From assembly GCF_019649055.1 (NCBI RefSeq), contig NW_026570333.1:372001-436000 (forward strand): 64,000 nt of DNA, read 5' to 3'. Within the stretch, counting starts at the first letter, position 1. Each line of letters starts with the position of its first letter. Shown piece by piece: positions 45,106-64,000 of the stretch. Below the pieces are notes generated by a model. The model did not search any database and was not told the DNA's origin. It saw only the letters and a program-made list of their open reading frames with translations. Position numbers and translations under genes: made by a program. This stretch comes from Paramacrobiotus metropolitanus. Taxonomy: Eukaryota > Tardigrada > Eutardigrada > Parachela > Macrobiotidae.

Positions 45106-45379
45106 GTCAGTCCAAAAAAAGGAAAAATAATATCCGCGAAATTTGGTTTGAAAAAATGAAATTTATTTCAGTATTTTCAATTTTTTGTCTTACAGTTCTG
45201 AAAGAACTACCTATTACTGTTTACAGCACCAGTTTAAGTGGTATATAGATTTGATGTATAATATTTGATGTATAATATATATTTTGCGGTGAAATAACGG
45301 TTCTTTTTTGCGGTAAAAAATCCGATAAAATATGATTTTTTACGGGGGAATATTTGATAAAAATATAAATACTGTACGG

Positions 45380-46181
45380 TGTAACAGACAAGCACGAGGA
45401 GATCACGAGTGATGCTTTATTGACAAATAAAGGGGGAACAATGCTGCGTAATAGCAGGAAAGCCAGAACAAAGTACTGATGGCTAATAGCAAGCGTGTGC
45501 TAGAAAAGCTCTTGAGCGTCCGTCAAGGCGTGAAAGGAGCAACTGGCGGCCAGCACGTGCTGTGTGCCATCAGCTGTGTGATGATGCGCAGACTGGACTC
45601 TATCCAACGCGAGCGTATGAACGCTGAGTCATACTGCGAGAGAGGAACGAGAGAGCAAGTGTGGCTCAGTGTGTGCGCTGCGTATATCCGCTTCAGCGGA
45701 TGAGTGCAGTGCAGCAGCACACGTACGTACAGCGAGAGAGGTGGTAACGGCAAGCAATGGTGCCAGTACGTCCTGTGTGGACCGTACGCACCAGGCGCAG
45801 TCGTACGCCTCTGACATGCCTCTGGGCGGGAATCCGAGCTCCCGCGAAGGATGCTCCGACTCGGTACCGCACCAGTACCGCACAACTCTCCGGTCGGACC
45901 CATGTGGGGTCGCCGGTACGCGTCCTCTGGCAGTGGGAGTCCGGTGTCTGGTCGACCGTCTCTTCTTCACTTCCGAACCCATGAGTGGAAGCCACTCACA
46001 GCCGAGAAATCCGGAAGCCGCTCGGGCGTTTCGTTGGACCGGTGACGCTTCTGTTGGCTGGCTTCTTGCGTCTGTTGGCAGCGGAGAACAATGTAAAAAG
46101 AAAAATGTAATGAAAGTTTATGCAGCGCGAAAGAAAGTAAATAAAGTTTAATCACAATTCCAGTGAGCAAAAGGGGTTACA
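45380..46181 (-). repeat. probable 3' LTR
   Basis: Starts TGTAAC and ends GTTACA, a perfect 6-bp terminal inverted repeat. On the sense strand, AATAAA at 45416-45421 lies about 36 bases before the end. Two element-type hairpins occur inside (45766-45787 and 45897-45911). No clear polypurine tract precedes it, and another GTTACA at 46371-46376 could be the true edge. The 5' LTR is outside the window, so this cannot be checked here. TACGG (45375-45379) may be the target duplication. Confidence 0.6.
45897..45911. repeat. hairpin, perfect 5-bp stem, ATGTG loop, inside the LTR
   Basis: GACCC ATGTG GGGTC. Together with 45766-45787 (GTACGTCC TGTGT GGACCGTAC) it ties the LTR to the rest of the element. 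Confidence 0.75.
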
Positions 46182-47911
46182 AAACAGATCTGTCAAAGAG
46201 ATCGAACTAGAAAAATACAATTCCGTTTGTTAGGAAAAATGTTAAAAAAATGCAAAAATCTATCCGGGGGTCCTATTCCGACTAGGATGACGTCCACGGG
46301 GTCTCCTGTCCACTTTCATCCGGTAAAGTTGGGTCCGGGGCATCGGTTCCCGGGTTACCCGTCGTAACCGGTTACATTCTCCGAGGTCGGATAAGCACGG
46401 TTAAACACTTACTTCCGACTCGTATCCGTCCGTTCGGGATAGAGAGGCACTGTTGCAGATGCAAATGCCGAGGCATCCTCTCTGAATGGGGAATAGGACC
46501 GAGGTCGGTTTGACCAAGGTCGGCCTACCGGTAAGTCGACCGGCGGCTGGGGGAAATTCGGCTATGTTCCGAATTGCTAAAGTCCAGGTCGGGAAAAGCT
46601 GTATGTAAATCATGCGGCCTGTGTGGTCGTCATGTACAGCAGTTCCGTTCAAAAAGTGGTCGGTTACAACCGTTTAATCTGCTACCACGAGCCTGGTTTA
46701 AAGTAATCCGAGTCGAGCTGGCTCGAAGGTCCGATCGGAAATCATGGGTTTGTTCGATGGAAGCGTCCAGTCGACTTCCATCCGGTATATTCCGTTGTTA
46801 TCCGACCTTCTGTCGAGGTCGGTCATCCTATCCGTCGGTGGTCGACTAGGGTTAACCTGCAATAACATGCCCATGTGGGGCTAAACAAGTGCCTTCAGGT
46901 CGAATTCGTCCACCGCGAACAGCTATCAATCTTCTTCCGTCATGTTGACTGAGTTTCCGACTTCCGACTTGTAGTCGGTTATGGTCGACTTCGGGAGGTC
47001 GGATGAACTGTGTGTTCATCCGTCCGAAGGTTAAATTTCTCCGTTAGGAGGTCGGTTCTGGACTTCCTAATGGCTTGGCCGACTTGTTGTCGCATTCTTC
47101 CGACTTCTGTGGGGTCACTTCCGACCTCAACTTCAGGTCGGTTATCCATATTATCCCTATTCCAAGGTCGGCTGTATCCGACGTCGCTAGGTCGGGTGAA
47201 CTTTGTGTTCATCCGCCAGAAAGCTAAGTGTTTCCACAAGGAGGTGGATTTCCTACTTCTTGCTGGTTTTTCCGACCTGTTGTCGTTTACTTCCGACCTC
47301 CGTTCGGAAACTTCCGACTTACTTTAGGAGTTCTATGCGTCCGGCTACAGTTGACCGGGTCTCCGTTGTTCGGATATCCTACGGTCAGTTCGGACTGGCA
47401 GAAGGATATTCAGCAGCACAACTCCGTTTCTCCTGTGGCTACTTTTCTGACACGAACTCTGGGTCGGATCCGAGCTGCTGTTGGCTTGTTTATCCGATTC
47501 TTCCGTTTTGTTTTGTCGCGAACCTGAGACGCCTAGCCGCTTCTGTTGGGGGTAGACGACTCACGTCCACGGGGAATTCTTCTTTGCCGGTGACGCTGGC
47601 CAATTGGCCGGTACTGTTCGAGTCAATGGCAGCACGTTCGAGGTAGTCGTGGTCACCGGTGAATCGGCTGGTTTACCCGATATCGTCCGGGGGAGACTGC
47701 GGTTGGACTCCAGGTATAGGTTCCTAGTTGAGTTCCTGTAGATCCGGGTTCAGCCGGAGAATCCGGTTAAGCTGCCACGTAACTACTACTAGCTTCCGTT
47801 CATTCTTCATGGGCGACTTCTGTTGGCCGTTATGGTCGACCTGTGTGGTCGGCCATAATGTCGATTTCAGCTCCCGAGTTTCCAAAACCAATCTTTGTGA
47901 TCGGCTTGCAC

Positions 47912-47932
47912 AACCGACCTTTGTGGTCGGTT
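47912..47932. repeat. hairpin, perfect 8-bp stem, TTTGT loop
   Basis: AACCGACC TTTGT GGTCGGTT. The longest perfect stem of the family, in the non-coding 3' region. Confidence 0.85.
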
Positions 47933-48497
47933 AGAGACGCGATATCCGTTATGTCTCCAAATTATGGGTGAAGTACGGAGTCGACCTTTGTGGTCGGCTC
48001 AAGTACATGTAGTCAAATCCGAGTTTTCTTGCGCTGTTGGCAGCTCGGCCGAGGGATTTCCGCTTTTACACTGGTGAAGGCTGCTCGGCTACCCGGTTCC
48101 GAAGTTGGCCACGGGTGCTCGGCAAACATGGCGATGAACACGCAGCGACGTATTCAGCGCCACGTTAGCGTAATCCTCTCAGTCTATGCTCCGGAGTCGG
48201 TTGGCCGGAGTAATCTTCATAGCCGGTCGTGGTTAATGGCGTGGTGTAACCATGTAACTATCGGTCGGCTCCGTGTAACGCGGGTTGGGGCTTCTGTTGG
48301 CTCCAATGGTCGCAGAACGTGGTTGTCGATCTGCTATGTTAGCAGATATGGTTTGCGATCTGTTCGTGCCATGCTGGGGAACTGAGGTCGGTTTGCTCAG
48401 TTCTGTCCAGGGATTCCTCGGAAGACGTACCGGAACGGTGGAAAAAGCCGGCTTGTCAGGTCTAACCACTCATATCCGGGTCAAACCGAAGAATCCG

Positions 48498-48516
48498 GCC
48501 GACTTGTGTAGTCGGC
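48498..48516. repeat. hairpin, perfect 7-bp stem, TGTGT loop
   Basis: GCCGACT TGTGT AGTCGGC. Compared with 47912 the innermost pair is changed on both sides (C-G to T-A), a compensatory difference. Confidence 0.85.
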
Positions 48517-48737
48517 ACTCTGGCAAAGTCGTCGTTGACGTCCGTCGCGTACATGGTTAATCGGTTTCTGTAAAAAAACTAAAGAAAAGTGTCCATTCCG
48601 AAGTCGTTTCTCGACAGTGCAATTTATCCGCTAGGCTGTTTCTCAGTCGGGTCGGTTCTCGACCATGCCGTTTCTCGGCGTTGAGTCCTCTTAGTTGTTC
48701 CAAATGGGGGATCGGGTTCCAATGTGGGAACCCGATC

Positions 48738-50220
48738 TTAACTGAGTGGGACTTCGACGGGTTTGTCGCCGCCGAAGTAATCTTCTTCATCTTCATCATC
48801 CGGGCCAAATCGGTTATGTGGCCGGATAGTCGGATCCTTGGGTTTACAAGTCGCCGGGCCACTCCGTTGAGACATCTCGTCAGTCTCATCCGTTTCTTGG
48901 TTGAGGCGATCCGCTCTGCCCTTCTTCGATTCCCTGGCCGCCTGTTTGCGGAGCCGCAGCGCATACGGTCGTGCGCCGGGTGCTATGTCGTCCGACATCC
49001 AAGGTTCGTAGGGCGATGAGTTAAATCCGCTGGGCAAGGTCTTCTTCTGTCGGTACCAGCTGATGAATCTGGTCGCGTCGTCGCTGGGATCTACGTGATC
49101 CTCACGAAAGGCATACTTTGTCGCATACCGTTCGTGGGTGTACAGCAAATCGCGCATCCAGATGGCGAGGATAACACTTCTCATTGGTGTGCCGAGTTGG
49201 GCGACGAGGGTTTCCACAGCCGCTGGTATCATTTCGTTCTGGTACAGGCCGTACAGGGTGTAATGGCAAAAGTAATTGCCGAGTCGTGCTGCGAAGATGA
49301 ATCGCAGGAATGCTGTGACTCCGTCCTGGGCCATATCGACTTCCCCTTCTGGAAGGTACTGGGTTAAATCCAGTGCTGCCCGAGCCGCGGTGATAACGAA
49401 GGCTGGATGTGCGTCCGTTATGACGAACTGGGCGATACTTTCCATCTCGTCATGGGGGTATTCCCGAGCTCCTAGTTGGCTCACACGCGTTCCGTCCGGG
49501 CTATACAGCGGTACGTTCAGTAAGACCGGGTCGGTCATTGACGGTAACGCATTCGATCTGGTGTACGGATGTTCAACATTCTGTGCTGTGTGCGCAGACA
49601 TGTTGAAGTCCGGTTGCCACCGATGTTGTTCCAGTAGCGTCTGGTATCCAGATCGGACGAGGAATTGACGAAGGTTTTCTACCATGCGCCAAACTTGTGG
49701 TCGATTCCGTTCCTCGTAGTTCATGATGTTCATAATGTGGTTTGTCCGTTCGGTGGGATGTAGCATGACGACCTCGATTCCTTGTTGTCGAGCGCGGTCA
49801 TAACGAGGGTCTTCCCGGATCGGCACTTCCACTTGTGGTAGTTGTGCCATCTGGTCGGCTACTTCGACGTCCATTTGCTCAGGTTGAGCTGCTGGTTCCG
49901 CTTGGACTTCAGCCGCTGGTTCCGCCTGATGGCCCTCCGGCTGCTGTTCGGGTGGGACAAAGTTACGTTTCGACTTATTTGTTAAGTCTACCGTAAGTCC
50001 GATTCCCGTTTCTCCGGATCCAGTTCGTTTTCCTGGTGGAGCTCTGGTTGGCTCTTTTCCGACTTGACGGATAACTGCTCGTTGCTCTTCGATTCTGTCT
50101 CGAAGATCAACAGGACCGATCCTATGTCGAAGGTCATGTCCCGGGAGATCCCTGCTGGGTCGGCGTTGCTGCTGTTGAGCCGTCGGTTGAGTCCGGTTTC
50201 CGTGTCGGGGGATCTGCTGG
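48738..50220 (-). CDS. LTR element ORF C, second frame, unknown family
   Basis: Continues ORF C in the next frame. The ATG at 49874 is internal, as sequence open upstream of it reads sensibly (NFVPPEQQPEGHQAEPAAE). A globular, mostly helical domain of about 260 residues (VWRMVENLRQFLVRSGYQTLLEQH ... FLRFIFAARLGNYFCHYTLYGLY) ends in a charged tail (GPDDEDEEDYFGGD). Compact helical core plus acidic tail is compatible with a nucleocapsid-like protein, but this is only a guess from shape. No homologue is recognised. Confidence 0.65.
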
Positions 50221-50896
50221 GAAACAGTTGGACGAGCCTGTGTGACACTGGCGTTGCCCTATGTGGGATTGCCATCAACTGTTCCCGAGTCGCCGGTGTG
50301 AGGGTAACTGGCTGTTGGGTTCCGTCCGGCATATTCATTATCATTGTTACCGATGCACTGGTCAATGGTCGGTGTGGATCTCCGACGAAGACATCTCGTA
50401 CATCGTGAATGAGCTGTTCGCTATCCGAGCGACCCTGTGTGGGTGCCGGTAACCGAATTTTTATTTCTGGTTCATAGTCGGTCGGTGGAGGATGGACCTT
50501 CATCGAGGCAATTCGTTTGTCGACCTCTCTGATCTTCTTCTGGTCCTCCAATTGACGGTTAGCGTCTTGCAGCTGGCGATACTCCCACAGTCTATCCGTT
50601 AAGACTGGTGGTCGGGTTCCTTCCCATCTCGGGTCGCGGGTTCGTTGCCGCTGAAGTGTAGCCAGGTTATCCTGTTCATGCGACTCTAGTTGGTCGACAA
50701 GGTATTCTCTGCCGGCCAGGTACCGATATGCGCTCAAGTTACCAGCGACAACATTAATGTAAAGTGCCGCTGCCTGAGCTCGGTGTTGTGGTCCCGTGCC
50801 GGTAACTCGTTCGTTCGTGAAGGATACGATACATTGCGCGCAAGGCAATCTGTTGTTGTCCCTCGTCGCGTTATCCCTGCACTGTTGGCAGTCCAC
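49988..50896 (-). CDS. LTR element ORF C, first frame (302 codons), zinc-ribbon start
   Basis: Starts with two CxxC pairs (residues 3-6 and 19-22), a likely zinc ribbon, then a helical charged region. Coding character changes frame near 50220: from there the natural protein (Gln/Arg-rich, then KEPTRAPPGKRTGSG) runs in the frame of the 48738-49874 ORF. The last 70 or so codons here are therefore probably out of frame. Confidence 0.65.
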   Translation of the reverse strand: MDCQQCRDNATRDNNRLPCAQCIVSFTNERVTGTGPQHRAQAAALYINVVAGNLSAYRYLAGREYLVDQLESHEQDNLATLQRQRTRDPRWEGTRPPVLTDRLWEYRQLQDANRQLEDQKKIREVDKRIASMKVHPPPTDYEPEIKIRLPAPTQGRSDSEQLIHDVRDVFVGDPHRPLTSASVTMIMNMPDGTQQPVTLTPATREQLMAIPHRATPVSHRLVQLFPSRSPDTETGLNRRLNSSNADPAGISRDMTFDIGSVLLIFETESKSNEQLSVKSEKSQPELHQENELDPEKRESDLR

Positions 50897-51133
50897 CGTG
50901 TAAGCTTCCGTTCGGTTCTGTCAAAACAAAAGTAAGCAAACCGTTTCTCGGTTGCATCCTATGATTTACACCCTATAATTACTACGGTCGGGCCAGGTCG
51001 GTTTTCGAACTGGTCCAAGACGCCTTTGTGGTCGTCTAATGAGGTAAGTCGACTTCTGTTGGTCGATGACGCCTGTGTGGTGTCACTGGAGGAAGGTCGG
51101 TTATGCCTCTCCTCCGACGCGTTCTGCGTTCCC

Positions 51134-52192
51134 TCACTCCCGTGTAGGTGCTTCTGTCGACTCCGGCCGACTTGCTTGGTGCGAGTCAGCCAGCTCGGTC
51201 GGTTGTGCCGAGGTGGATCGTTCCTTCGGTAAGTGTCCGTGCCGGTGAGTTGATGGGTTTAAGGCGATGAACCGTTGGCCGCCCTGGACTTTATCGGTGT
51301 TTGTGGCAAATCTTTGTTGATAGAGTGCTTTCGATAAGACGAATTCCAATTCGTCTTCCAGGGAATACTTCTTGCGTCCAGCAATTACGTCAGGTTTAAG
51401 CTTGTATTTGGGGTCGACCAACTGCGGTTCTGCTGCTGTCCACTCGAACTCGAACCGTGCTGTAAGTTGGTGGAGTATTTCTCCACGGGTAAGTCCGTCG
51501 GGATGCCAGGACATTTCCATACACGCTTCGATGGCGTGTGTCCATCCTTCATATGTTGAAGGGGCCGGGTCCTTTTTAGCCGGCGGGAACTCGTAGTACA
51601 TCCGCTTTGTGCTGGTGTACGTACGTATTATCTTCCCGGCATGGTATCCCATGTCGCAGTAATGTCGCACGTTATTCTGGCTCAGTTGTCGCCAGTCGCC
51701 CGTCTGGTCTACCTTCCAATGTTGGAGGAGTTTGAAGGCGATTCTTGGTGTGGCGAATTTCGGTCCACACGTAGCCAAGGCCTTCAGGGCGGCGAATGTG
51801 TACATCCATCCCGCATCGTATTCCGAAACACTCGGTTTCGGTTTTGAAGCCGATTTGATGCCGGTGTACTTGACCCTAACGTTGGTCAACGGAGGGATGT
51901 CGTCCGGCAACACTTCCATGGTGTCCTCATTCCATTCGGAGAGAAGTGGCCGCTCGTCGGTGTCAGGGGTTATCAGTATCCGTTTACCGTACTGACGAGG
52001 GATGTATACTCCGCCATCGTCTTCATTGCCTTTGGACTCTTCAGCTTTGTCGCTGCTGTCCTTCTCTTCCGGTTGTCTATCCGGTATCTCCGGTTCGCCC
52101 TGCTGTTGGGGTGCCGGGTTCGACGGTGGTGGTGGTTTACCATTTTCGTCGTCGTCATCGTCATCGTCTTTCGGCGATCCGTTCCCAGGTGT
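51134..52192 (-). CDS. ORF B extension after an in-frame UGA (about 352 codons)
   Basis: Exactly the same frame as ORF B and open right after its UGA (52193-52195). The acidic/proline character carries on across the stop (DDDDDDDE, PPPPSNP), which suggests one original protein of about 2500 residues. A folded-looking part (VSEYDAGWMYTFAALKALA ... YYEFPPAKK ... LTRGEILHQL) follows from the internal Met at 51919. Readthrough, a point mutation to stop, or independent initiation at 51919 are all possible. Confidence 0.65.
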   Translation of the reverse strand, partial: TPGNGSPKDDDDDDDENGKPPPPSNPAPQQQGEPEIPDRQPEEKDSSDKAEESKGNEDDGGVYIPRQYGKRILITPDTDERPLLSEWNEDTMEVLPDDIPPLTNVRVKYTGIKSASKPKPSVSEYDAGWMYTFAALKALATCGPKFATPRIAFKLLQHWKVDQTGDWRQLSQNNVRHYCDMGYHAGKIIRTYTSTKRMYYEFPPAKKDPAPSTYEGWTHAIEACMEMSWHPDGLTRGEILHQLTARFEFEWTAAEPQLVDPKYKLKPDVIAGRKKYSLEDELEFVLSKALYQQRFATNTDKVQGGQRFIALNPSTHRHGHLPKERSTSAQPTELADSHQASRPESTEAPTRE

Positions 52193-55100: not shown

Positions 55101-58100
55101 GTCGCCTTCAGGATTTCCGAGAGTCGTTCCTTGGTCCTGACTGGTGATGGCGACTTTGGCGGGAAGAGACGCCTGCGTGGACCGTGCTCTTCAATGTTGT
55201 CCGTCGGTTTTGGTTTCCTTATGAATTTCGGCGAGTTTGATCCGCCTGGTTGGAGGACGAGTCGACCGTCAGGTGTCCGTTCACTCTGCGGTTCTCTTTG
55301 TGAGAGCCCAGGTAACGTGGTCGGTCGCTCGAGGGGCTTAGGTCGGCTAGTTTCCGTTGCTGCAGCTTCCTCCGACGTGTCCATCGGCTCGTCTTCACCT
55401 TCGGGTCCTGGTACCGGTACTTCATCCATCGGCTCGTCTTGGTGACTCGCCGGTGGGACTACCTGTGTCGGTTTGACAGGTTGTACCTTAGGCTTTTTAG
55501 CGGAGGGCGGCCTCTTCGGCTTACGTTGCGCTTCCGCTTCCTTTCGCTTGTAGAAGTCGTCTACGAAGGACTGAATCATGGCCGTCAAAGTTTGCAGCCG
55601 TTCCTGGTTCTTTGCCGACCACACTGTTGTTGGTCGGAGGATGAATCGGGCTTCCTTGGCATTATTCTCCAAGTGTCGGAGATTGATATCGATCTGACAG
55701 TATTGCGGACTTCGTTGGTCGGTTTCATCCATCATCTTTCGAAGTTCGACGATGACGGCGTCCGCTCGCAGTAACTGTGTGTTAACTGCTTTTACCCATT
55801 CGAAGTCGGGTTTGGCTGGTGGGGCTGGAGGTGGAAGTCGGACAGAATCAAAACTCGGTTTCCGAGCCGACTGGATCTTTGTGATCCGAGACGGTCGACC
55901 TTCAGTCATGGCGTTTGTTGCCAAGCTGGTCGATTCCTGTTCTTTGTCCCGTTCCTTCTCCTCCTCGTACTCGTTTACCCTTGTTTCCAGCCATGAAGTC
56001 GTTCGGATTAGGTGTTGTCGAGTCCTGGTCGTCTGTGGGGCGTCCGGATGACAGAGTCGTCGTATGAACCGGGCATTGTTTCCCCACGCTAGGACATCTC
56101 GATCCAAATCATTCGCTTCTTGGCTGTTATCTTCATAGAAATTTCTGCGGGCCCTCATCTCTGTGATGAGTTCCGCTACTCTAGCCAGTAGTTTGATTAT
56201 ATGTGGCGCGACCGTACTCGGCAATTCGTCCGTGTCCGGTATGGCTTCCATGATTCGGGCTTCCGTGGCGGGAGACTTGGGCCGATCGGCCATTTCCATC
56301 GGTTTCAGTTGGGCCAAGTCTGCTGTTGAGGTCGGCTGGGATTGAATCCGAGCTGTTGTCGAGATCGGCTGACTCGAGGTGTTCGACTGTTGCGAGCCGG
56401 ATGCGCGTTGTGCCGCTTTCCGTTGTTCCTCGAGTTCCTTTAGCCGTAAGATTTCTAGGTCGGTTTGCACGTCCTGAATGTGCATCTGAGAGACTCTAAT
56501 TTGGTCTTCGATTGCCGTCCGGATATTACGGATGGTCGGATCTGTTCCGTCCATGTTATCGACTTGGCGTTGCAAGCTATCGGCAATCCTTTGTGTACGA
56601 GCCAACTTGTCGTTAAGGGCTTCACGCTTTTCTGCCAATGTGGGCTCGAGCGGTTGTTGCGAAGCAGTCGGCTGCGGCTGAGTGGAAGTCGGCTGAGCCC
56701 TTTGTGGGTTAGCCTCTAAGATCTTCCACAAGTCTTCGACCCGCCTTGAGCAGATACTATACTGCTGGTCCAAGGCATCGCGCATTTGCTTCTCCATGGC
56801 GTTATTCGGGTCGAGTTCCCGGAGTTGTCTTCCGAGCTTCTCCATGACGTCGACCGCTTCTCGGTACTGGTTCTCAACTTCGCTGATGTCGACTGCCTTT
56901 TGTTCGGCTGCCTCAGCGAGTGGAAGTTCGACGTCAATTCCGGGTGATGGGACTGGAGAAGGTGGTTTCCCACGAGCTGGTACTGGCGCTCCCGCTTTGT
57001 TCGGGTTTGCCAAGTACTGTTTGACATGATCAATCACCGACTGAAGTGCTTCGATTAGCCGGTCCCGGTTCGGACCCGGCGGTGGAATTCCCCATGAGCC
57101 TAGAGTATCGGCCCAATCCAACTCGAGTCGTAGTGCTCGGTCGATCGGGGTGAGGTCGGTTTCCTCTTGTTCCGTTAGGGTTCCACTTAGTCGGTGGTAA
57201 AAGATGTCGGCCAAATCCTGTCCAGCTTGGGTAATTATGTCCAAATTGGCGGTTAAGTTTTCCATTGGTGTCGTGCCGACTAGAGTCATCACCGCTGTCG
57301 TAGTCGGTGCTGCTCGGCGAGGTGGAGACGGCGTGGCGATCCGAGTGTACTCGGCTTCCGCATTGAGGATCTCTGTGATCCGCTCAACTACCGACCTGAG
57401 TTGTCGTTCGTCGACTTCGGTCGGCTCTTCTTTGCGGAGTAAGTCATCTGCCTTTTTCAAGTAGGCTGTCAAGTCGTTCATCTTCTGCCGTGCCACTCTC
57501 AGAGTTTCGCCGTCCGTTGGCGTGTTTTGTACGAACGTTCGCTGGAGGTCTTCCAGTAAGTCCCATCCATCGCTGATGATGGAGGACATCTTTTCTCTGC
57601 GGCTTTTTCGCATTGCCGAGTGCATCTCCGCCGCCGATGAGGTCGACGGTAATGCATCCGAGGTTTCCGTGTCCGAGTCGTGTGGTAAAGGTTTCGCCGT
57701 TACGGCCTGTGTGGTCGTCGTCGGCAAAGGCGATGATATCGGTGAAGTCATAACGGCTCCCGGTAGTAACGTCGTCGGTTGGACGTTATCCGTCAGTAAG
57801 GACGGAAGTTTCTCCGCCGAGATAGCCGTCTTCACCTGATCCAGGACTGTTCGGAGTCGGTGTTTGTCCACCTCTGTGGTTGGCAAACCATACCGAGTAA
57901 GATCTTCAGTTAGCCCTATGTGGGCTATAAGATCGTGAATCTTCCGAACTGGATCTAGGGTGGTAGGATCTCGGATTCCATCAGCTATGCGTCCGTAGAT
58001 TCCTTGGAGAGCTTCTTTGCCGTCGAGGATAGTTTTCCAGACTTCTGTCGTCTGGTAATCCTGTCCTATCTGAAATGCCATCGCATGGTACCGGGGCTGG

Positions 58101-58642
58101 GGAACCTGTTGTTCGGCTCCTCCTGTTTGGCTCTGGATTATCTGTCGAATCCTCCGGTAATGCATATTTAGTCGAATGGCCTGATCGTCCGTGGTTATGC
58201 CGCCGTCCTGTTCGGCAAGTCTGCGGGCGATCCGTAAACTTCGGTAAAGGTCGTTTACTAACCCTGCTCTATTGGTTACGGCGACCAAATCTCCACCTTG
58301 CGTCATCCTCACTTCGTCGAGGATTCTATCTCCCGTTCGGATAGCGGCCTGTACCTCTGCCAAGGTGGGCATTTGTACGTCTTCTGACCGACGTTCGGCT
58401 GCGTCCAGAATCTGGGCAAGCTGTGGATATAGGTTAGCTCGGTTCTGAGCATTCCGTATCCTGTTCCGGATTGCAGTTAGCAAATCCAGGCTTGTCGGCA
58501 TTCCGGTCGTTAAGTAAGACCGAAGTCCTGACATGAAGTCGCGGATGGCCCTTCTGTGGCTATCGAGGTTCATTGCCTCGGTAGTCCCTGCTTGTGTGTC
58601 TTCTAATACTGTGTCCATCCGACCTGTGACTATTGTAGCCAT
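52193..58642 (-). CDS. LTR element ORF B, giant 2149-aa protein, unknown family
   Basis: Open for 6.4 kb, which rules out chance. Roughly residues 1-1000 are repeated helical units of 70-110 residues (for example ILDGKEALQGIYGRI, IISDGWDLLEDLQ, IITQAGQDLADIF) joined by Pro/Thr linkers such as TTTTQ and PTTEV, resembling a chain of helical bundles. Residues about 1040-1780 are Lys/Pro/Ser/Thr/Glu-rich and probably disordered. Residues about 1800-1960 form a compact helical domain (WLTHQLMMQIVAWILDFG). The end is acidic (EEETEDEDDDDDF). No enzyme motif, signal peptide or long hydrophobic span was seen. It is far larger than any usual gypsy product. Confidence 0.8.
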   Translation of the reverse strand: MATIVTGRMDTVLEDTQAGTTEAMNLDSHRRAIRDFMSGLRSYLTTGMPTSLDLLTAIRNRIRNAQNRANLYPQLAQILDAAERRSEDVQMPTLAEVQAAIRTGDRILDEVRMTQGGDLVAVTNRAGLVNDLYRSLRIARRLAEQDGGITTDDQAIRLNMHYRRIRQIIQSQTGGAEQQVPQPRYHAMAFQIGQDYQTTEVWKTILDGKEALQGIYGRIADGIRDPTTLDPVRKIHDLIAHIGLTEDLTRYGLPTTEVDKHRLRTVLDQVKTAISAEKLPSLLTDNVQPTTLLPGAVMTSPISSPLPTTTTQAVTAKPLPHDSDTETSDALPSTSSAAEMHSAMRKSRREKMSSIISDGWDLLEDLQRTFVQNTPTDGETLRVARQKMNDLTAYLKKADDLLRKEEPTEVDERQLRSVVERITEILNAEAEYTRIATPSPPRRAAPTTTAVMTLVGTTPMENLTANLDIITQAGQDLADIFYHRLSGTLTEQEETDLTPIDRALRLELDWADTLGSWGIPPPGPNRDRLIEALQSVIDHVKQYLANPNKAGAPVPARGKPPSPVPSPGIDVELPLAEAAEQKAVDISEVENQYREAVDVMEKLGRQLRELDPNNAMEKQMRDALDQQYSICSRRVEDLWKILEANPQRAQPTSTQPQPTASQQPLEPTLAEKREALNDKLARTQRIADSLQRQVDNMDGTDPTIRNIRTAIEDQIRVSQMHIQDVQTDLEILRLKELEEQRKAAQRASGSQQSNTSSQPISTTARIQSQPTSTADLAQLKPMEMADRPKSPATEARIMEAIPDTDELPSTVAPHIIKLLARVAELITEMRARRNFYEDNSQEANDLDRDVLAWGNNARFIRRLCHPDAPQTTRTRQHLIRTTSWLETRVNEYEEEKERDKEQESTSLATNAMTEGRPSRITKIQSARKPSFDSVRLPPPAPPAKPDFEWVKAVNTQLLRADAVIVELRKMMDETDQRSPQYCQIDINLRHLENNAKEARFILRPTTVWSAKNQERLQTLTAMIQSFVDDFYKRKEAEAQRKPKRPPSAKKPKVQPVKPTQVVPPASHQDEPMDEVPVPGPEGEDEPMDTSEEAAATETSRPKPLERPTTLPGLSQREPQSERTPDGRLVLQPGGSNSPKFIRKPKPTDNIEEHGPRRRLFPPKSPSPVRTKERLSEILKATPSSLPPAEVPSPSRKVMGAKALFTPGIHKKLVSQAKTLDLQRILYEAQLQGGIRDRTMTEEQQTQTAQKIHATIQDRDKVLRRLVTLRCGKQELRQLPLDSNMIQTIQRLRNPSINPGAYTLEIQPRPKEEVTEKIPITMSDSSEDEENADNVDSDDSIQQKAEAPPKGSTPKRGRSPVKQISPTRSASQPTKLPSQLTTEKPLRFTPRNTPTKPKKTEDAMDTTSPSEARVETTVETSPQRDEPTSVHSGPCLTIDESRTNESAKESVNIPTKRSTAKEKPPQDSSREFHDDPALQHVKDLTRSEQDACIDMAYPEDRELWHSLRIRRASIVGNTTEARRDHDRLTEKMADVMKRMGEHYRAEKSRPKALQAAMPTRHKVTAPEPKSTKKTAQQPVKMKVPPPTRQPSVQIDDDLDTRVINSANSAKSHKDKRKAKKEAAKQSAKSQLTETQKKPVKSKAKETTKPKSDSTVKTPKPNPAKRHKSSDDLDISDAGPQRTEQREKAQQPHDKEAVERKFKEVMERTGTKPAKTSGGRLRNPPKPPTPTQQPQPSTSRQQSDVESDHISDIEEQDSNSDNGEGDPYERFKGDLKEMFDHGADTDESQWPAPDDVRERLPDEQPDDPVDTLIRTVRVHVEVVRSIENARKNGADMYQSLVRDLSNNIQVGGETGKWLTHQLMMQIVAWILDFGLAVAVHRQWGRMAELLPPDLIKALKSAAARNAGDTPTRIARCIGYSRNPRGSTLVQIARVYNVMYMDKKGNIDEIITDRISDRITSLVEQHTLQTTNAERDVPVRYTVPNFIPEQHRREFNLQMSYVNTDKPPAGTEPIEEYSDSNEQPSEDAAALLHIARTAGQSSQRRVQVLPRPRAPHEPTTYVGTAVAPAGRASMAKPTRSAKGRFIPRDVQSLPPSSPMEISPEPEDLTQKGKLKSAKIESTKLAKKKEPKSSEPISSSEEETEDEDDDDDF
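55290..55308. repeat. hairpin, 7-bp stem, TTTGT loop, inside ORF B
   Basis: GGTTCTC TTTGT GAGAGCC. All pairs match apart from one G-T. Another unrelated stem with the family loop. Confidence 0.8.
57911..57927. repeat. hairpin, perfect 6-bp stem, TATGT loop, inside ORF B
   Basis: TAGCCC TATGT GGGCTA. The stem has no sequence in common with the GTCGG-type stems but has the same geometry and a family loop. Confidence 0.8.
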
Positions 58643-60498
58643 TCGTAGGAAGTCCCGCAGCTCCTGCAGTGTTGGGAGCGGTTCACAGGTGGCCCTTGTG
58701 GGACCTGCTGTGTCGGGTTCACTTGGAAGGTCGGAACTTGGATAAGAGGATTAGAGCTGAGCGTCATTAACGGTGAGGGTTGGGTTCCGGTCGGGACGAC
58801 TACTGGTTGAGTCGTCGTCGGCTGTAGAGCTCGGATTTCATTCTCCTTTTCCGTCAACTTCTCAGTCCAATATCCGATTAGTTCGGAGTTAGATTGGACG
58901 GCTGAGGGGTAATACTCCTTGGTTGGATCGAGTGTAGCCAGGCGCTTCTTCACTTCATTTATTTCATGAAGGTATTCGCTGCGCTTTTGCGCTAGAGCGT
59001 CCAGCCGGGCTAGTCGGATTTCTTCATCAATCACCGCCTGTGTGGTCGGTGCTGATATTCCCGACGAGCGCAAGTTTTGTTCTTGTGCTCGTATTTGCCT
59101 CTCCAAGTCGGCTGCAATGTCGACTTGTTTATCTTCCTGCCGGCGTATTCTGCCGAATTCAGCCGTGTAATTATCCATATTCTGAGGAAGGCGTGTCCAT
59201 GACACTCTTAGCTTCACGGCCTCTTTCATGGCCTCCTCCCTCCGGAGACGTAGTTTTCCGATCTCCAGTGAAGGTGTTCGGCCAGGCGTTTGTCGGCCTG
59301 CCGAAGTCGACGGAATTGGTTGAGACGTCGGCGTGACAACCTGTGTGGTTATCGCCGGGGGCCCTGGGTTAGGGTCTCCCAATCTCTGGCCAACATGCCG
59401 AACTACCGCTTGTTGGCAGATTCGGAGTGTTTCCTTTTCTTCGGCGTGGAGCTTCAAGGTGGCGTCGTTCAGACGGTTCTCGTAGTACGACAATTCAGCC
59501 AACAACTTCGTTCTGTACGGAGTGTGGCTCGGATCCATCTGTGAGGTCTGCGTAAGTGCTTGGCTGATCGTGTCTATGTGAGCACGAGCCAATTTTGCCT
59601 GTTGACGCAATTCCTCTTCGGTTCTGCCGTTGGTGTTGACGGTTTCGACCTGTGTGGTCGTCGTCGAAACAGGCACTTGTTGGCTCTGTCCTCCGACCTG
59701 ACTTCTGTGTTGGTTCAGCCGGTTCATTAAGTGGGTCGTCGCATTTGGATCCATCCAGAGGTTCTGTTGTCCGGGTGGCCTAAGATGAGTCGGCGAGATC
59801 GGTGGCGTAAGCAATACTGGCCTTGGTGGCGAGATTGTGCCATCCGGGCTGACCATACTCATCGTTGCGATCGTCATAGGTGAGTGTGGCATTCCGGGCG
59901 TAGGCGGAACTGCTACGAATCGCATCGGTGGTGGGTATGCGAAACTATTCGGCGCCAATGTGGGCGTCGTATAAATCGGACCCGCTGTGTTGGCCATTCC
60001 TGGCGTCATTGTGGGCACCGTGTAAATCGTTACGGGCGTGTTCGCCATCCCTGACACTATTGTCGGTGTCGGGTAAGCTGCCATGGTCATCATTGTTGAT
60101 GCCGAGCTGGTCGGTCCGACTATTGTAGTCGGTACCGACCACTGGTAAGGTGGCATTTGACCATGTGGGCCTGCTGCCGTTGTCGGAGTCGTCTGACTCA
60201 TTCCCGTTCCGAGATTCCACAGACAGCCTGTGTTATCGACTGCTGTGTTCGGTGGCAGAATTTGTGGCGGTATCGTTCCACGTTGGGGCCCGACCGTAAG
60301 ACCTGCTAACACATTAGCTGTTACGTTAGCTTGAGGATTGTCTACCTGCGGTAATGGCGTCTGTGTGGCCGACCGCGAATTATCCGATCGCGATGTCGAG
60401 CGGTGAGTCGGGTAGGGCTGTGGTCTGTTCGATCCGCTACCACTGCGTCCACTGTTTGATCCGCTGGAAGGTGGGTCGTGTCGGCGACGACCTGACAT
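58630..60498 (-). CDS. LTR element ORF A, 622 aa, unknown family
   Basis: Begins with a Ser/Arg/Gly/Pro-rich basic stretch. About 200 Pro/Thr/Met-rich residues follow, including degenerate repeats (GMANT..xIYT.PT), then charged helical segments likely to form coiled coils (about residues 290-360 and 420-560). It ends in a CRSCG motif. No membrane span or signal peptide, so it does not look like an envelope protein. The stop overlaps the ATG of ORF B by 13 bases in another frame. It could be structural (Gag-like) or an assembly factor, but no family was recognised. Confidence 0.75.
   Translation of the reverse strand: MSGRRRHDPPSSGSNSGRSGSGSNRPQPYPTHRSTSRSDNSRSATQTPLPQVDNPQANVTANVLAGLTVGPQRGTIPPQILPPNTAVDNTGCLWNLGTGMSQTTPTTAAGPHGQMPPYQWSVPTTIVGPTSSASTMMTMAAYPTPTIVSGMANTPVTIYTVPTMTPGMANTAGPIYTTPTLAPNSFAYPPPMRFVAVPPTPGMPHSPMTIATMSMVSPDGTISPPRPVLLTPPISPTHLRPPGQQNLWMDPNATTHLMNRLNQHRSQVGGQSQQVPVSTTTTQVETVNTNGRTEEELRQQAKLARAHIDTISQALTQTSQMDPSHTPYRTKLLAELSYYENRLNDATLKLHAEEKETLRICQQAVVRHVGQRLGDPNPGPPAITTQVVTPTSQPIPSTSAGRQTPGRTPSLEIGKLRLRREEAMKEAVKLRVSWTRLPQNMDNYTAEFGRIRRQEDKQVDIAADLERQIRAQEQNLRSSGISAPTTQAVIDEEIRLARLDALAQKRSEYLHEINEVKKRLATLDPTKEYYPSAVQSNSELIGYWTEKLTEKENEIRALQPTTTQPVVVPTGTQPSPLMTLSSNPLIQVPTFQVNPTQQVPQGPPVNRSQHCRSCGTSYEWLQ
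60116..60132. repeat. hairpin, perfect 6-bp stem, ATTGT loop, inside ORF A
   Basis: CCGACT ATTGT AGTCGG, extendable to GGT..ACC with one bulged base. Confidence 0.8.
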
Positions 60499-60674
60499 TG
60501 TTGCTTGCTGTCAAGGAAAGGAAATACGGCGCGTTAGAATTCTACCAACTCCCGTACATTCAACTGAAGATGTTCCGGTCAACTGAAGAGATTCCATTTC
60601 GACACCAAAGGTCCATCTATACCTAGCTACTGTTGAGCTACCTAAAACTTATTCTAAGTTTTACACCTATGGCC
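60499..60674 (-). other. gap between pol and ORF A
   Basis: 176 bases with stops in all sense frames. No promoter or splice signal stands out. Confidence 0.5.
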
Positions 60675-61305
60675 CTATAACTGAGTCTGTGCTGTTGTGA
60701 CTGTTGTTTTGGGTGTCTTGGGTTTTGCTATTTTGACTGGTTTCTCCGAGTCTGCCCGTCCCTCGGTGATCCGTTCAAAGATTTCCTTATGGGCTTCGTC
60801 TTCAGCGACTTCAGTTTCCTCCAGCATCTGTTGTGCTGTCAGCTTCGGTTTCTTAGCTGTCCCATACTTCCGTTTCGGCTTAGTCGGTTCGACTGCCTGG
60901 TCGGCTGCTTCGACTTCCGTAGTCGGCGCCGATATATTCGGTAAGTCGACCTTCCGTTTTGTGTACTTCCGCTTGGGCTTAGTCGGTTGGACTGCCGAGT
61001 CGGCTACGGGGGGGACCTCTGTGGTCGGTGCCGACGAGTCGGTTTCCTTAACCGTCCTCTTCTTCCGAGCCGGCTTTGTCGCCGGCTTCGGTTCCTCTGT
61101 AGGTCGGTTAGCTGGCTGAACCAGTGCTTCCGACTTGTCTTCCGACTCCCTCGGTTTCTCCGTGGTCGGCTGAGCTTTGTTCTCAGTTTCGTCCAAGGTC
61201 GGTGCTGGTTCGGCAGCTATCACGTCTTGCTTCTGAAGTTCTTTCAGGGCAGGTGTCTCGAAGTCGGTCGGTGGTTTCTTCCGAGGTCGACCTCGTTTCT
61301 TCTCT
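60675..61305 (-). CDS. Pol C-terminal basic tail with AT-hook-like motif
   Basis: Best read as the continuation of pol in another frame. It opens with KRGRPRKKP, an AT-hook-like DNA-binding motif. Later, two copies of a module of about 37 residues (SAPTTEV ... V.PTKPKRKY) each end in a basic cluster. It is absent from ordinary gypsy integrases, where a chromodomain sometimes sits. Its role could be chromatin or target binding; that is inference. Confidence 0.6.
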
Positions 61306-62044
61306 TACCGTCGGTTCGGTTTTGTCCGCGTCGTTAGTCGGATCCGAAGGTTTCTCGACGGTTTCTTCCGGTTTGTTCTTCGGCTTCCGAGTAGGTTTCC
61401 CTTCTGTCGGGTCGGCTACCGGGCCTGTTGACCGAGTTGCTGGTCGACTTGTCTCGACTCGGCAATGTTTAACTCGGTCGACGGCTACCGTATCTTCACG
61501 TCCGTCTTCGCATCGAAGGAGTAAGTTGTTTGGGCCAACGTAGTTGATGACCGTCCAAACCCCATCGTAGCGTTCCTTTCGGGTTGGGTCCTTGGTCGGG
61601 AATTCCACCGTTACCTTATCCCTCGGTTTGAAGGTCGGACTCGACTTCTTCTTGTTGTAGTGCTCGGCATTTCGTTCGAATGCTTCATCAATGTTGATGC
61701 GAGCAATCTCATGCGAGCGCTGAAGTCGTTCTTTTATCCGTCGGATGTATTGTTCCTTATCCGTAAAGGTTTCTGGTGTATTCGTTCCGGCCACTACGTC
61801 CTGTGGCATGGTCATTTCTCGACCATACAACATGTAGAACGGTGAGAACTTAGTCGCGGCATGGACGGCTCGGTTCATTCCGCAGACGACGTAATCCAAG
61901 GCTCTGTGCCATCGGTGTCCGTCTGTTACATCGCAGAACTTCCTTATTCCGTCCCAAATTGTTTGCATTTGCCGTTCGACTTGTCCTTGTCCTTCCGGAT
62001 GATGGGCAGTTCCAAGTGTGTTGATGCCGAAGATCCGTGCAGGA
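61183..62044 (-). CDS. pol: Gypsy integrase, catalytic Glu and C-terminal domain (other frame)
   Basis: Continues the integrase after the frame break: HHPEGQGQVER carries the third catalytic residue (Glu), then the usual FSPFYMLYGRE segment. Next comes a KPRDKVTVEFP ... GVWTVINYVGPNN module resembling the GPY/F-type C-terminal domain, and a charged P/T/E-rich tail. Near 61305 the natural sequence moves to the frame of the 60675-61300 entry. Confidence 0.8.
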
Positions 62045-64000
62045 TCTAGCGAACGTCTTCGCCGTAAAATGAGTCCCTCTGTCCGAGTGGATGAAGGTCG
62101 GCATTCCGTATTTCCGTAGGACGTCCTTGACGAAGAACCTTTCGAATTCCCTCGCGGTATTCGTCTTTGTTGCCCGGGCTACGGTGAACTTCGTCAGCTG
62201 GTCGGTTACCACTGCGATGTACTGGTATCCCTTCGTCTCCGTCCGAGGAAGAGGACCTTTAAAGTCCGCGTATATGCGATACCAGGCTTCACCGACTTCC
62301 GTCTTTTGGAGTTTACCCGGTGGTGGACGTCGTTGCTTGTTCGTCATGATGCACTGTCGGCATTTCTCAATATAGGCAATGGCGTCGCTATTCATGCGAG
62401 TCCAGAAGTAACGCAGCTTCAGTGCTTCGATCGTTTTCTCCCGTCCGAAGTGGTTTCCGGTTTTTCCGTCGTGGAGCGATCGGATGATTTGATTCCGCAT
62501 AAAGAGTGGTACGACGAAGCAACGTTCCAACTTTGTGTTGATCGTCTTCAGTCTGTACAATACTCCTTGCGCCATCTGGTAGTGTTCCAGATGCTTCGAC
62601 TTATGGTCTAGTTTCTCTGGGTTTTCCAGTTCATCAATGATTTTGCGTAGCTGCGGGTCTCGCAACTGCGCTTTCCGAAGTTCCATGTTCGGTTCGGGTG
62701 GAGGTGGGAGTGTCTCTTCAACTTCCAACTCGTCATCCTCCGCCGTGTTGACGGTCCGAATGGTCGGTTCCGGTGTCTCCGGTGCTGGGATGTTTATGAC
62801 TCGGACCTCTGTGGTACTCAAGTCATCCCAGTCGGTTATGACGTTGCATCCGAAGAGAACCGGTGGAAGGGGGATTTTCGGTGGGTTTTCCTTATCCTTC
62901 TTTTCCTTCTTGGAGGCGTTCGCCTTCAGACGTCTAAGAGTCCGTATTGTACAGACCTTAACCTCGTCCTTGAAGTCCTCGAAGTTGGGGACTTGATCCA
63001 ACTCTTCGTGTGGATCTTTGTCTTCACTACGTTCGAGTGGCCATCTCGACAGGGCGTCCGCATTGTCGCAGAAAACTCCTGGCTTATACTCGATGGTTAT
63101 GTCCCGTCCTTGTAAAGCCAGTGCCCATCTTGTTAGTCGAGGGTTGATGCCAGGTCGGTTCGACTCGCATCGGAGCAGATTCTGTAGTGCTCGGTGATCT
63201 GTCCTTACGGTGAATGGTCCGTGGTCGATGAAGTGCTTAAATTTCTGCACGGCCCATACCACGGCCAAGCATTCCCATTCGGTAACTCCATAGTTGAGTT
63301 CCGGTCCTCGTAGGACTCTGCTGGCGTAGGCGATTGGATGATCGTCTTGTGAGATCACCGCGCCAAGTCCGGCTCCGCTTGCGTCACATTCGATGACGGT
63401 CTTTTTGGTCGGGTCGAACTTCGCCAGTACAGGTGCTTCGGTTAGCGCTTTCTTGATGTCGTTGAACTCAGCCGTGTGGGCTTCCGTCCAATCGAGCTTG
63501 ATATTTTTATCCTTCCGGAGGAGCTCATACATTTTTGAGGTTTTCTGAGCGTATCCTCGGATGAATTTCCGATAGTAGTTGGCCAGTCCGAGGAACGACC
63601 TGAGTTGCCGTTCAGTTCTCGGGCAGCTTTGTTCTGCAATACAGGCCACTTTCTCGTCGTCGGTCTGAACTCCGTCTTTGCTGAGGACGTGTCCAAGGAA
63701 CAACAGTCTGTCCGTTCCGATCTCGCATTTGGAGGGTTTGACCGTAAATCCAGCATCGCGGAGGCATTCGAGAGTCGCTCGGAAAGCCTCTAGGAAGTCT
63801 TCGAACGTTTTGCCGAAGAAGATGATATCGTCGATGTAGGCGAATACACCTTTCTTCCGAGCTGATGCTGTAATTTTATCCATATGCATTTGGAAAGTTG
63901 CTGGTCCGTTGCAGACTCCAAACGGCATACGGTTAAATCGCCACATGCCTTCGGGTGTTACGAAGGTCGTGTAGTCTTTGGATTGTTCGTCCATAGGAAT
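61850..64000 (-). CDS. pol: Ty3/Gypsy Pol: reverse transcriptase, RNase H, integrase (partial)
   Basis: Open from the window edge. The visible part starts inside the RT palm (MPFGVCNGPATF) with the catalytic YIDD box and FLGH. RNase H follows (VIECDASGAGLGAV, TDHRAL, NADALSR), then a linker of about 130 residues with acidic and PPPPEP stretches. The integrase has an HX..CxxC-type finger (H-x-C-x2-C, near IEKCRQC) and the first two catalytic Asp (IYADFKG, IHSDRGTHF). The frame is lost near 62045, just before the catalytic Glu, which is read in the next frame (61183-61968). Pol copies the element's RNA and inserts the DNA. The shift inside the integrase core is more likely a mutation or assembly indel than programmed frameshifting. 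Confidence 0.9.
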   Translation of the reverse strand: MPMDEQSKDYTTFVTPEGMWRFNRMPFGVCNGPATFQMHMDKITASARKKGVFAYIDDIIFFGKTFEDFLEAFRATLECLRDAGFTVKPSKCEIGTDRLLFLGHVLSKDGVQTDDEKVACIAEQSCPRTERQLRSFLGLANYYRKFIRGYAQKTSKMYELLRKDKNIKLDWTEAHTAEFNDIKKALTEAPVLAKFDPTKKTVIECDASGAGLGAVISQDDHPIAYASRVLRGPELNYGVTEWECLAVVWAVQKFKHFIDHGPFTVRTDHRALQNLLRCESNRPGINPRLTRWALALQGRDITIEYKPGVFCDNADALSRWPLERSEDKDPHEELDQVPNFEDFKDEVKVCTIRTLRRLKANASKKEKKDKENPPKIPLPPVLFGCNVITDWDDLSTTEVRVINIPAPETPEPTIRTVNTAEDDELEVEETLPPPPEPNMELRKAQLRDPQLRKIIDELENPEKLDHKSKHLEHYQMAQGVLYRLKTINTKLERCFVVPLFMRNQIIRSLHDGKTGNHFGREKTIEALKLRYFWTRMNSDAIAYIEKCRQCIMTNKQRRPPPGKLQKTEVGEAWYRIYADFKGPLPRTETKGYQYIAVVTDQLTKFTVARATKTNTAREFERFFVKDVLRKYGMPTFIHSDRGTHFTAKTFARSCTDLRHQHTWNCPSSGRTRTSRTANANNLGRNKEVLRCNRRTPMAQSLGLRRLRNEPSRPCRD

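Follow-up and report, generated by a model that had tools for sequence, protein, structure and literature searches.

Why should a single retroelement carry dozens of small hairpins that share a loop and differ in their stems? The question is raised by a locus of the tardigrade Paramacrobiotus metropolitanus, considered here as a window of 64,000 nucleotides (assembly GCF_019649055.1, contig NW_026570333.1, positions 372,001 to 436,000 of the forward strand). The 3' two thirds of a Ty3/Gypsy long terminal repeat (LTR) element of about 28.5 kb lie in the window; the element has the minus strand as its sense strand and extends 9.9 kb past the window into an upstream piece, L021. A first-pass annotation, made from the letters alone, had described at least 25 hairpins with a constant five-base loop between 45766 and 62815. 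That interval contains 24 direct ACANA pentaloops with at least four Watson-Crick pairs, and 46 ACANA hairpins when every shape tried is counted.

A family of ACANA hairpins

In the 27.5-kb internal region of the element, 34 of 223 ACANA pentamers are closed by a perfect stem of at least four pairs and 21 of 223 by one of at least five, while in 45 kb of flanking host DNA each of these counts is 1/279. Most one-letter variants of the loop are close to zero with stems of at least four pairs, at position 5 (ACANC 1/215, ACANG 0/164, ACANT 1/113) as well as at position 1 (CCANA 0/173, GCANA 0/125, TCANA 0/80), and this bears out the earlier description of a constant loop on varying stems. Some stems are found with ACGNA (5/245), ACTNA (3/115), and AGANA (5/127), and loop positions 2 and 3 therefore tolerate a little. 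When every pentaloop pattern containing one or two wildcards is ranked, ACA.A stands at the top. The family has a single orientation: the antisense motif lies in such stems in 0 of 17 cases in the internal region, and over 17 fetched pieces of the element the counts are 187/1185 for sense and 1/202 for antisense ACANA.

When seven hairpin shapes were tried, with the 5' LTR excluded, 72 of 227 sense-strand ACANA pentamers fit one of them, against 6.1 expected from 27,745 other element pentamers; in the host flank, 3/279 do so. The 72 comprise 39 direct hairpins, 15 with a mismatch under the loop (mostly purine.purine), seven of the 2x1 shape, three of the 2x0, and two of the 1x1 shape, and six with a 5' bulge (0.19 expected), the bulged base lying two pairs below the loop; none has a 3' bulge. 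With flexible geometry, ACANA over a mismatch was counted eight times, against none in host DNA, and a 5' bulge two pairs below the loop five times, again against none. The seven-shape count is also raised for ACANT (18/115), ACGNA (21/249), and ACTNA (11/118).

Base composition and codon usage as the cause are ruled out by shuffling. The part of the element in the window has 22 ACANA hairpins against 0.46 in dinucleotide shuffles (maximum 2 of 200 shuffles), and the upstream part has 12 against 0.32 (maximum 3). The codon-preserving shuffle that the first-pass annotation had proposed as a check was run on 11 open reading frame (ORF) pieces totaling 21.4 kb, and the 26 hairpins seen lie far above the 0.98 obtained with synonymous codons (maximum 4 of 300). 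Perfect hairpins with five-base loops of any sequence are in excess over 20 dinucleotide shuffles (42 versus 15.5 for stems of at least five, 18 versus 3.4 for stems of at least six), as are loops of 7, 8, and 9 bases with stems of at least five (51, 31, and 45 versus 17, 15, and 16); loops of 3, 4, and 6 show no excess over the same shuffles.

As had been claimed, the sites occupy the LTR, the 3' non-coding part, and the ORFs, and 14 coding loops fall in all three codon phases (6, 5, and 3). The 72 hairpins are spread over the whole element with random-looking spacing (mean 373 nt); regular spacing was rejected, the coefficient of variation of the gaps being 0.95 against 0.98 for random placement (range 0.79-1.24). 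A scan of the window part of the element (45364-64000) against Rfam at the gathering score gave no match.

The positions of the hairpins in the window, all on the minus strand, are given here as the loop plus nine bases on each side. The hairpins named in the first-pass annotation are present where it had placed them, and stems that can be written out are TAGCCC-ACATA-GGGCTA (57908..57930), GGATC-ACAGA-GATCC (57363..57385), CTCATC-ACAGA-GATGAG (56151..56173), GGATC-ACAAA-GATCC (55869..55891), TCGTC-ACAAA-GACGA (52513..52535), CCGACA-ACATA-TGTCGG (52461..52483), CCTTCA-ACATA-TGAAGG (51543..51565), GACTTA-ACAAA-TAAGTC (49969..49991), CGACC-ACAAA-GGTCG (47978..48000), AACCGACC-ACAAA-GGTCGGTT (47911..47933), CGACC-ACACA-GGTCG (47833..47855), and TGAAC-ACAAA-GTTCA (47193..47215), together with two discussed below (48496..48518 and 47000..47022). 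Further direct hairpins have the loop ACAGA (63698..63720, 61009..61031, 56532..56554), ACAAA (62523..62545, 55288..55310, and, with a G.U pair, 47885..47907), or ACACA (59642..59664, 59333..59355, 55767..55789, 50427..50449); the hairpin in the 3' LTR (45765..45787) also has the loop ACACA, and a similar one is found in the 5' LTR. A mismatch lies under the loop ACAAA at 63619..63641, 61167..61189, 59067..59089, 56987..57009, and 55905..55927, under ACAGA at 58035..58057 and 50085..50107, under ACACA at 54419..54441, and under ACATA at 46554..46576. The 5' bulge occurs with ACATA (59566..59588), ACAAA (59280..59302, 54367..54389, 51016..51038), and ACACA (59030..59052); the 2x1 shape with ACAAA (61066..61088, 49108..49130, 46217..46239), ACATA (53953..53975), and ACAGA (51046..51068); the 1x1 shape with ACACA (51065..51087, 49578..49600); and the 2x0 shape with ACATA (48326..48348) and ACAGA (46800..46822).

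Two other features of the same sequence were seen. Loops AGAAA or AGAAC closed by G-C occur at 48659, 50948, 48675, and 48611 and are perhaps a weaker second class. On the sense strand of 45817-64000 plus L021:1-9424, CCGACC is present 94 times against 29 for its complement GGTCGG, and AACCGA 79 times against 4 for TCGGTT, a surplus that could reflect numerous half-stems without a partner or a distinct single-stranded motif.

Selection on loops, silent sites, and stems

The presence of the element at many places in the genome has made it possible to ask how the hairpins evolve. Window positions 45850-53950 were compared with the same piece elsewhere; 17 pieces were taken from the first 19 other places, and 16 could be aligned, their long matches being 83-94% identical to the window. 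The 63 ACANA pentamers of this region were divided into 24 that fold well and 17 that do not, with 22 intermediate ones left out. Over the 16 copies, the substitution rates at the loops of the 24 hairpins are.025 (A1),.033 (C2),.014 (A3),.155 (N4), and.019 (A5), while at the 17 unstructured pentamers they are.115,.136,.102,.084, and.047. Thus the loop is kept mainly where it sits on a stem, and its fourth base is free. In non-coding hairpins the fixed loop bases are changed in 4/468 comparisons and N4 in 31/118, against a rate of 8.4% outside the hairpins; the stems of these hairpins evolve no slower than their surroundings (8.2% versus 8.4%). Silent sites are constrained as well: third codon positions are changed in 138 of 1639 comparisons (8.4%) inside hairpins versus 4638 of 23034 (20.1%) outside, and 44 of 109 third-codon sites are variable inside versus 1070 of 1552 outside (p = 5e-9).

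Whether stems persist as pairs between copies, a second check proposed by the first-pass annotation, was examined in five divergent copies (76 hairpin comparisons), where positions changed on both sides are paired in 19 cases and broken in 7; when the partner is slid, the corresponding numbers are 43 and 74 (p = 9e-4, a value that ignores the relatedness of the copies, one of which, L033, is also among the 16). Stems thus tend to stay paired. In the relative L039, the hairpin at 48496..48518 has gone from GCCGACT-ACACA-AGTCGGC to GCCGACC-ACAAA-GGTTGGC, a compensatory change, and the one at 47000..47022, CGGATGAAC-ACACA-GTTCATCCG in the window, has a rebuilt stem, CGGTGAAA-AACATAG-TTTTACCG.

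Taken together, these comparisons argue strongly that the loop and the silent sites are under selection and moderately that stem pairing is. The earlier suggestion of a recognized structure is therefore well supported by the loop kept mainly on stems, the free fourth position, and the constrained third codon positions.

Relatives of the element and their loops

A 75% relative of the element, L039 (C25:671000-680000), has its 3' part joined straight to its 5' part, the equivalent of window position 50449 lying beside that of L021:186. It lacks most of pol and the giant ORF and retains hairpins, with 10 of 63 sense and 0 of 10 antisense ACANA in stems of at least four pairs, and it is a deletion or non-autonomous form.

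From a search with pol, there seem to be two more lineages, with an amino-acid identity of about 60-70%, as judged from the identities and without a tree. In lineage 2, L046 and L047 have no blastn similarity to each other and share a different constant loop, CAC(A/G)NAA (CACRNAA). This pattern was discovered in L046, where 11/17 occurrences are in stems of at least four pairs, and was then tested in L047, where 6/13 are. Neighboring patterns differing at one or two positions give 0/55 and 0/37 in L046, and 4/59 and 1/56 in L047; codon shuffles of the L047 ORF give 0.11 versus the 6 seen, and dinucleotide shuffles of L046 give 0.02 versus 11. The core GACCACANAAGTC has 345 genomic sites versus 38 for the reversed control, and the places listed form runs on one strand. 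The loops are exclusive in the pieces read: CACRNAA is in stems in 0 of 23 cases in the window element, and L046 and L047 together have direct ACANA hairpins in 2 of 85.

In lineage 1 (L044 and L045, which overlap by 2 kb), ACANA is in stems in 1 of 52 cases. Six-base loops with stems of at least six are present 10 times versus 1.6 (maximum 4 of 30 mononucleotide shuffles), and CAAT(A/T)A is a hexaloop in three of four cases, a pattern picked after the fact; CAATWA hexaloops are perhaps a third loop code, a hint only. Relatives of the giant ORF are found in L047 (36-52%) and L045 (22-31%), and none was found in L046.

Local repetition of hairpins was also observed. On the sense strand of L046 (2597-4306), hairpins with the five-base loop AACAG (ACCGAC..GTCGGT) recur, partly by local duplication. 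In L041, at about 1030-1720, there are tandem 24-nt units, approximately 30 by eye, that code for PPTNQVGF-like peptides; 21 exact CCGACC-N5-GGTCGG hairpins are listed in this array and the adjoining sequence, 15 with the loop AACCA and 4 with ACCCA. Tandem duplication of this type is a possible local source of new hairpins.

A model for hairpin function and its alternatives

We lean, by a narrow measure, toward reading the approximately 70 ACANA hairpins as multivalent sites for a protein encoded by the element that gathers the genomic RNA, most likely for packaging. The hairpins would be near-equivalent recognition sites, each presenting A-C-A-N-A on any stable stem, with the sequence of the stem irrelevant, and they would act in one single-stranded nucleic acid, most probably the sense genomic RNA. 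An RNA-binding protein of the element would read the loop and occupy a large number of sites together, and mass action would let it single out the long genomic RNA and coat or condense it, most likely for packaging into particles, with nuclear export ranked second. Many equal, randomly spaced sites fit a dose effect, in which binding is multivalent and grows with the length of the RNA. Lineages that share a host have exclusive loops; the reader is therefore expected to differ from one element to the next and is taken to be element-encoded. A candidate would be an element protein of the capsid or nucleic-acid-binding kind: the presumed Gag (L021:2743-5430) has only a sub-threshold Pfam match, and by inspection contains a CCHC-like knuckle (CNFCKFSNHDQARC) and glycine-arginine stretches. 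We infer the protein reader, its origin in the element, the sense-RNA strand, and the packaging purpose alike. A broader proposition, which we regard as evenly poised, is that giant Ty3-type elements of this one tardigrade genome tag their own genomic RNA with a lineage-specific loop repeated tens of times, each with a coevolving element-encoded reader; such a loop code would cover ACANA in the window family, C-ACRNA-A in the second lineage, and perhaps CAATWA in a third.

A number of results weigh against this reading. Covariation is moderate: among the 16 copies there are 20 distinct double changes, 12 of which retain a Watson-Crick pair and 8 of which lack one; sliding the partner by 1-3 bases gives 17 Watson-Crick, 8 G.U, and 45 broken. 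Folds forced on seven other loop patterns keep 64/111 doubly changed cells versus 38/51 for ACANA, in a comparison made at an energy cut of -8 in which control folds can share stems with real hairpins. Single changes break the pair in 97 of 707 pair comparisons among the five divergent copies, which is, as expected, what decaying insertions would give. In those copies the loop contrast is weaker (25/300 changed in hairpins versus 34/216 at unstructured pentamers, p =.011; at A3 alone, 11/75 versus 12/54), and in L039 alone hairpin loops are barely better kept than loops elsewhere. Single changes yield G.U no more often than A.C (77 versus 107 cells in the 16 copies), and the G.U and A.C states number 17 versus 27 when private and 13 versus 11 when shared by three or more copies. 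Since hairpins lie in the 3' non-coding part and the LTR, they are probably present in spliced messages, which weakens a simple selectivity for the genome. Finally, the 3' ORF product as a whole and its C-terminal part both gave unusable AlphaFold models (mean pLDDT, the predicted local distance difference test, 30.6 and 37.5), lineage 1 has no firmly shown loop code, and all lineages and copies come from one genome.

The alternative that comes closest, although we consider it unlikely, is that the hairpins serve nuclear export or retention, with a spliced accessory protein coating the unspliced genomic RNA through them and taking this RNA out of the nucleus. The candidate reader would be the product of the 3' ORF (48741..50920, minus strand, in pieces of 506 aa and 310 aa), which has a CxxC..CxxC motif near its start and a leader in common with the giant-ORF region. 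In the database, the gene model LOC129596996 connects the 3' ORF with the MSGR leader found on the 626-aa ORF and, as a gene model, would imply a spliced message with a shared leader. The CxxC..CxxC motif occurs in LOC129596996 and in the majority line of an alignment of 17 sequences of the 3' ORF, being mostly kept among the copies; the product has four cysteines and might bind zinc. A precedent is described in the main text of a paper on the Cer1 element of Caenorhabditis (PMC10309623), whose spliced accessory protein CERV has an essential cysteine loop and is required for export of genomic RNA; CERV surrounds fibrils thought to be genomic RNA, and export by Rev and in Mason-Pfizer virus is summarized in the same source. 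Cer1 is thus alike in being an LTR element with a spliced, cysteine-rich accessory protein and a long unspliced RNA, and the 3' ORF resembles CERV in layout, by its four cysteines and, through the gene model, its leader, rather than by direct comparison of sequence. Unlike the tardigrade element, Cer1 is credited with no hairpin array in that main text, where the word "hairpin" is used a single time, of a protein fold, and "stem-loop" never (PMC10309623). Against export stand the hairpins in parts probably retained in spliced messages, the lack of a usable fold of the 3' ORF product, and the searches with it, which found no relative of solved structure and, among the 8000 candidates scored per search, no match beyond LOC129596996.

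The remaining alternatives are less probable. Action in the opposite strand, that is, in minus-strand complementary DNA or antisense RNA with a loop UNUGU, for example while the element is reverse transcribed or as targets within antisense precursors, is improbable in our view, though a constant orientation suits either strand. Sense A.C changes, which are G.U in the antisense, are as common as G.U changes; since G.U is not favored, the substitutions do not establish that pairing takes place in the sense RNA and not in its complement. In-stem mismatches followed by two further pairs are similarly frequent for A.C (13/36) and G.T (5/14), with 4/54 for the others. Of the 41-mers around the 72 hairpins, only 18 fold better in the sense, but so do only 91 of 300 random element 41-mers, and fold energy is therefore uninformative as to strand; lineage-specific loops demand a reader on either strand. 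One fixed orientation is demonstrated, and the substitution data do not settle the acting strand. A host-directed role, in which the hairpins bind a host protein that stabilizes, translates, or protects the long transcript, is less probable still. It would agree with the dense, dispersed sites, and the element-encoded reader is a candidate only; however, the loops are exclusive among lineages of the same host, which would not be expected of one host reader, and the flanking host DNA has, as noted, almost no ACANA hairpins. That the hairpins are tiny mobile palindromes, as the first-pass annotation had offered as an alternative, or protein repeats driven by repetition (PTTQVG peptides, tandem duplication) can practically be dismissed. 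The tandem array of L041, with its CCGACC-AACCA-GGTCGG hairpins, and the PTTEVG-like peptides that recur in ORFs speak for such an origin. Mobile palindromes are rejected by the near absence of antisense hairpins, and the stems differ rather than being recognizably related, though CCGACC/GGTCGG-like stems recur; peptide repeats as the cause are rejected by the non-coding sites, the three codon phases, and the excess over codon shuffles. Loop conservation is, moreover, tied to stems. Some new sites may have arisen through tandem duplication, which leaves their upkeep unexplained.

Organization of the element

The element is assigned to Ty3/Gypsy by the Pfam order of reverse transcriptase (RT), RNase H, and integrase and by its paired LTRs. 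The 3' LTR (TG...CA; 437 bp, 45380..45816) was found by blastn against its partner, the 5' LTR outside the window (L021:9440-9921), and its ends were read directly; the pair is 92.5% identical over 455 columns and 98% over 52 columns. The five bases beside each LTR end (45380 and L021:9921) differ in the window copy, which thus shows no target-site duplication there. Reading along the minus strand, pol (61853..64000; PF00078, PF17917, PF17919, PF17921, PF00665) comprises the end of RT, whose start lies outside the window, RNase H, and integrase. It is followed by a 331-aa ORF on the C-terminal side of integrase and a 209-aa ORF (60675..62178), both without a Pfam match, and by a 626-aa ORF that starts MSGRRRHD (58633..60510). 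The giant ORF (51137..58750) consists of 2185 aa plus a piece of 352 aa, which in several other copies runs on without a break from the upstream giant-ORF sequence. The 3' ORF has a broken frame in the window copy and is open at 713-730 aa in nine others, and the 3' non-coding part (45817..48737) contains 11 of the 48 window hairpins.

The accessory ORFs have no Pfam match over curated cut-offs. The 506-aa piece of the 3' ORF (48741-50258) matches one protein, LOC129596996 of Paramacrobiotus metropolitanus, at 88%, among 8000 candidates scored out of a database of 5.8 billion proteins. Among 237 candidate places in the genome, 40 with a pol piece, including the window's own, were scored at 92-100% identity, and the pattern CCGACCACANAGGTCGG has 186 exact genomic sites versus 0 for its reversed control. 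By eye, the 626-aa and giant ORFs (51137-60510) appear to contain about twelve helical modules in a row, of 65-90 residues each.

Known systems and significance

Structured RNAs read by a viral or host protein are familiar from retroviruses in the Rev/Rev response element, the constitutive transport element, and psi. These are compact, local elements, whereas the signal of the tardigrade element is spread across its whole length. The boxB hairpin of phage lambda, GNR(N)A, is another five-base loop whose fourth base is free; it is a lead only, since the element has a conserved A, not G, at loop position 1, where GCANA, as seen above, is never found in stems. A close likeness is to the dispersed packaging signals of MS2, satellite tobacco necrosis virus (STNV), enteroviruses, and the hepatitis B pregenome, which, as described in PMC6281560 and in the abstracts of other papers, consist of many stem-loops with a shared loop motif in one genomic RNA. 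The MS2 motif includes an A in a 5' bulge and a loop given as (x)xYA (PMC6281560); a 5' bulged base below the loop is found in six element hairpins, while the element loop is, unlike that of MS2, fixed at four of five bases. The element likewise has many stem-loops with one loop motif and variable stems, with loop and pairing under selection, and by analogy its hairpins may be assembly signals bound by a Gag or coat protein. It differs from the viral cases in being an LTR retroelement of 28.5 kb with about 72 sites and in a loop whose identity varies by lineage. Among the open-access titles listed there were reviews and RNA-virus cases and none on such an array in an LTR element, which does not prove that none has been published, and a word search of the main text of this tardigrade's transcriptome paper finds neither "retrotransposon" nor "transposable" (PMC11191345).

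The dispersed packaging signals known from RNA viruses are short, loose motifs, whereas the element combines a strict loop and a free fourth base with unconstrained stem sequences and constrained silent sites, at dozens of places that can be scored in many copies. Together with the natural switch of loop between related lineages, this opens the idea of a genome-wide, multivalent RNA tag to direct testing, and the element offers matched and mismatched hairpins, ready to use, by which the reader could be found. If the lineage-specific loop code proposed above is true, each family would handle and package its own RNA and not that of its sister families. The finding also bears on how very long retroelement RNAs are distinguished from those of the host and of related elements.

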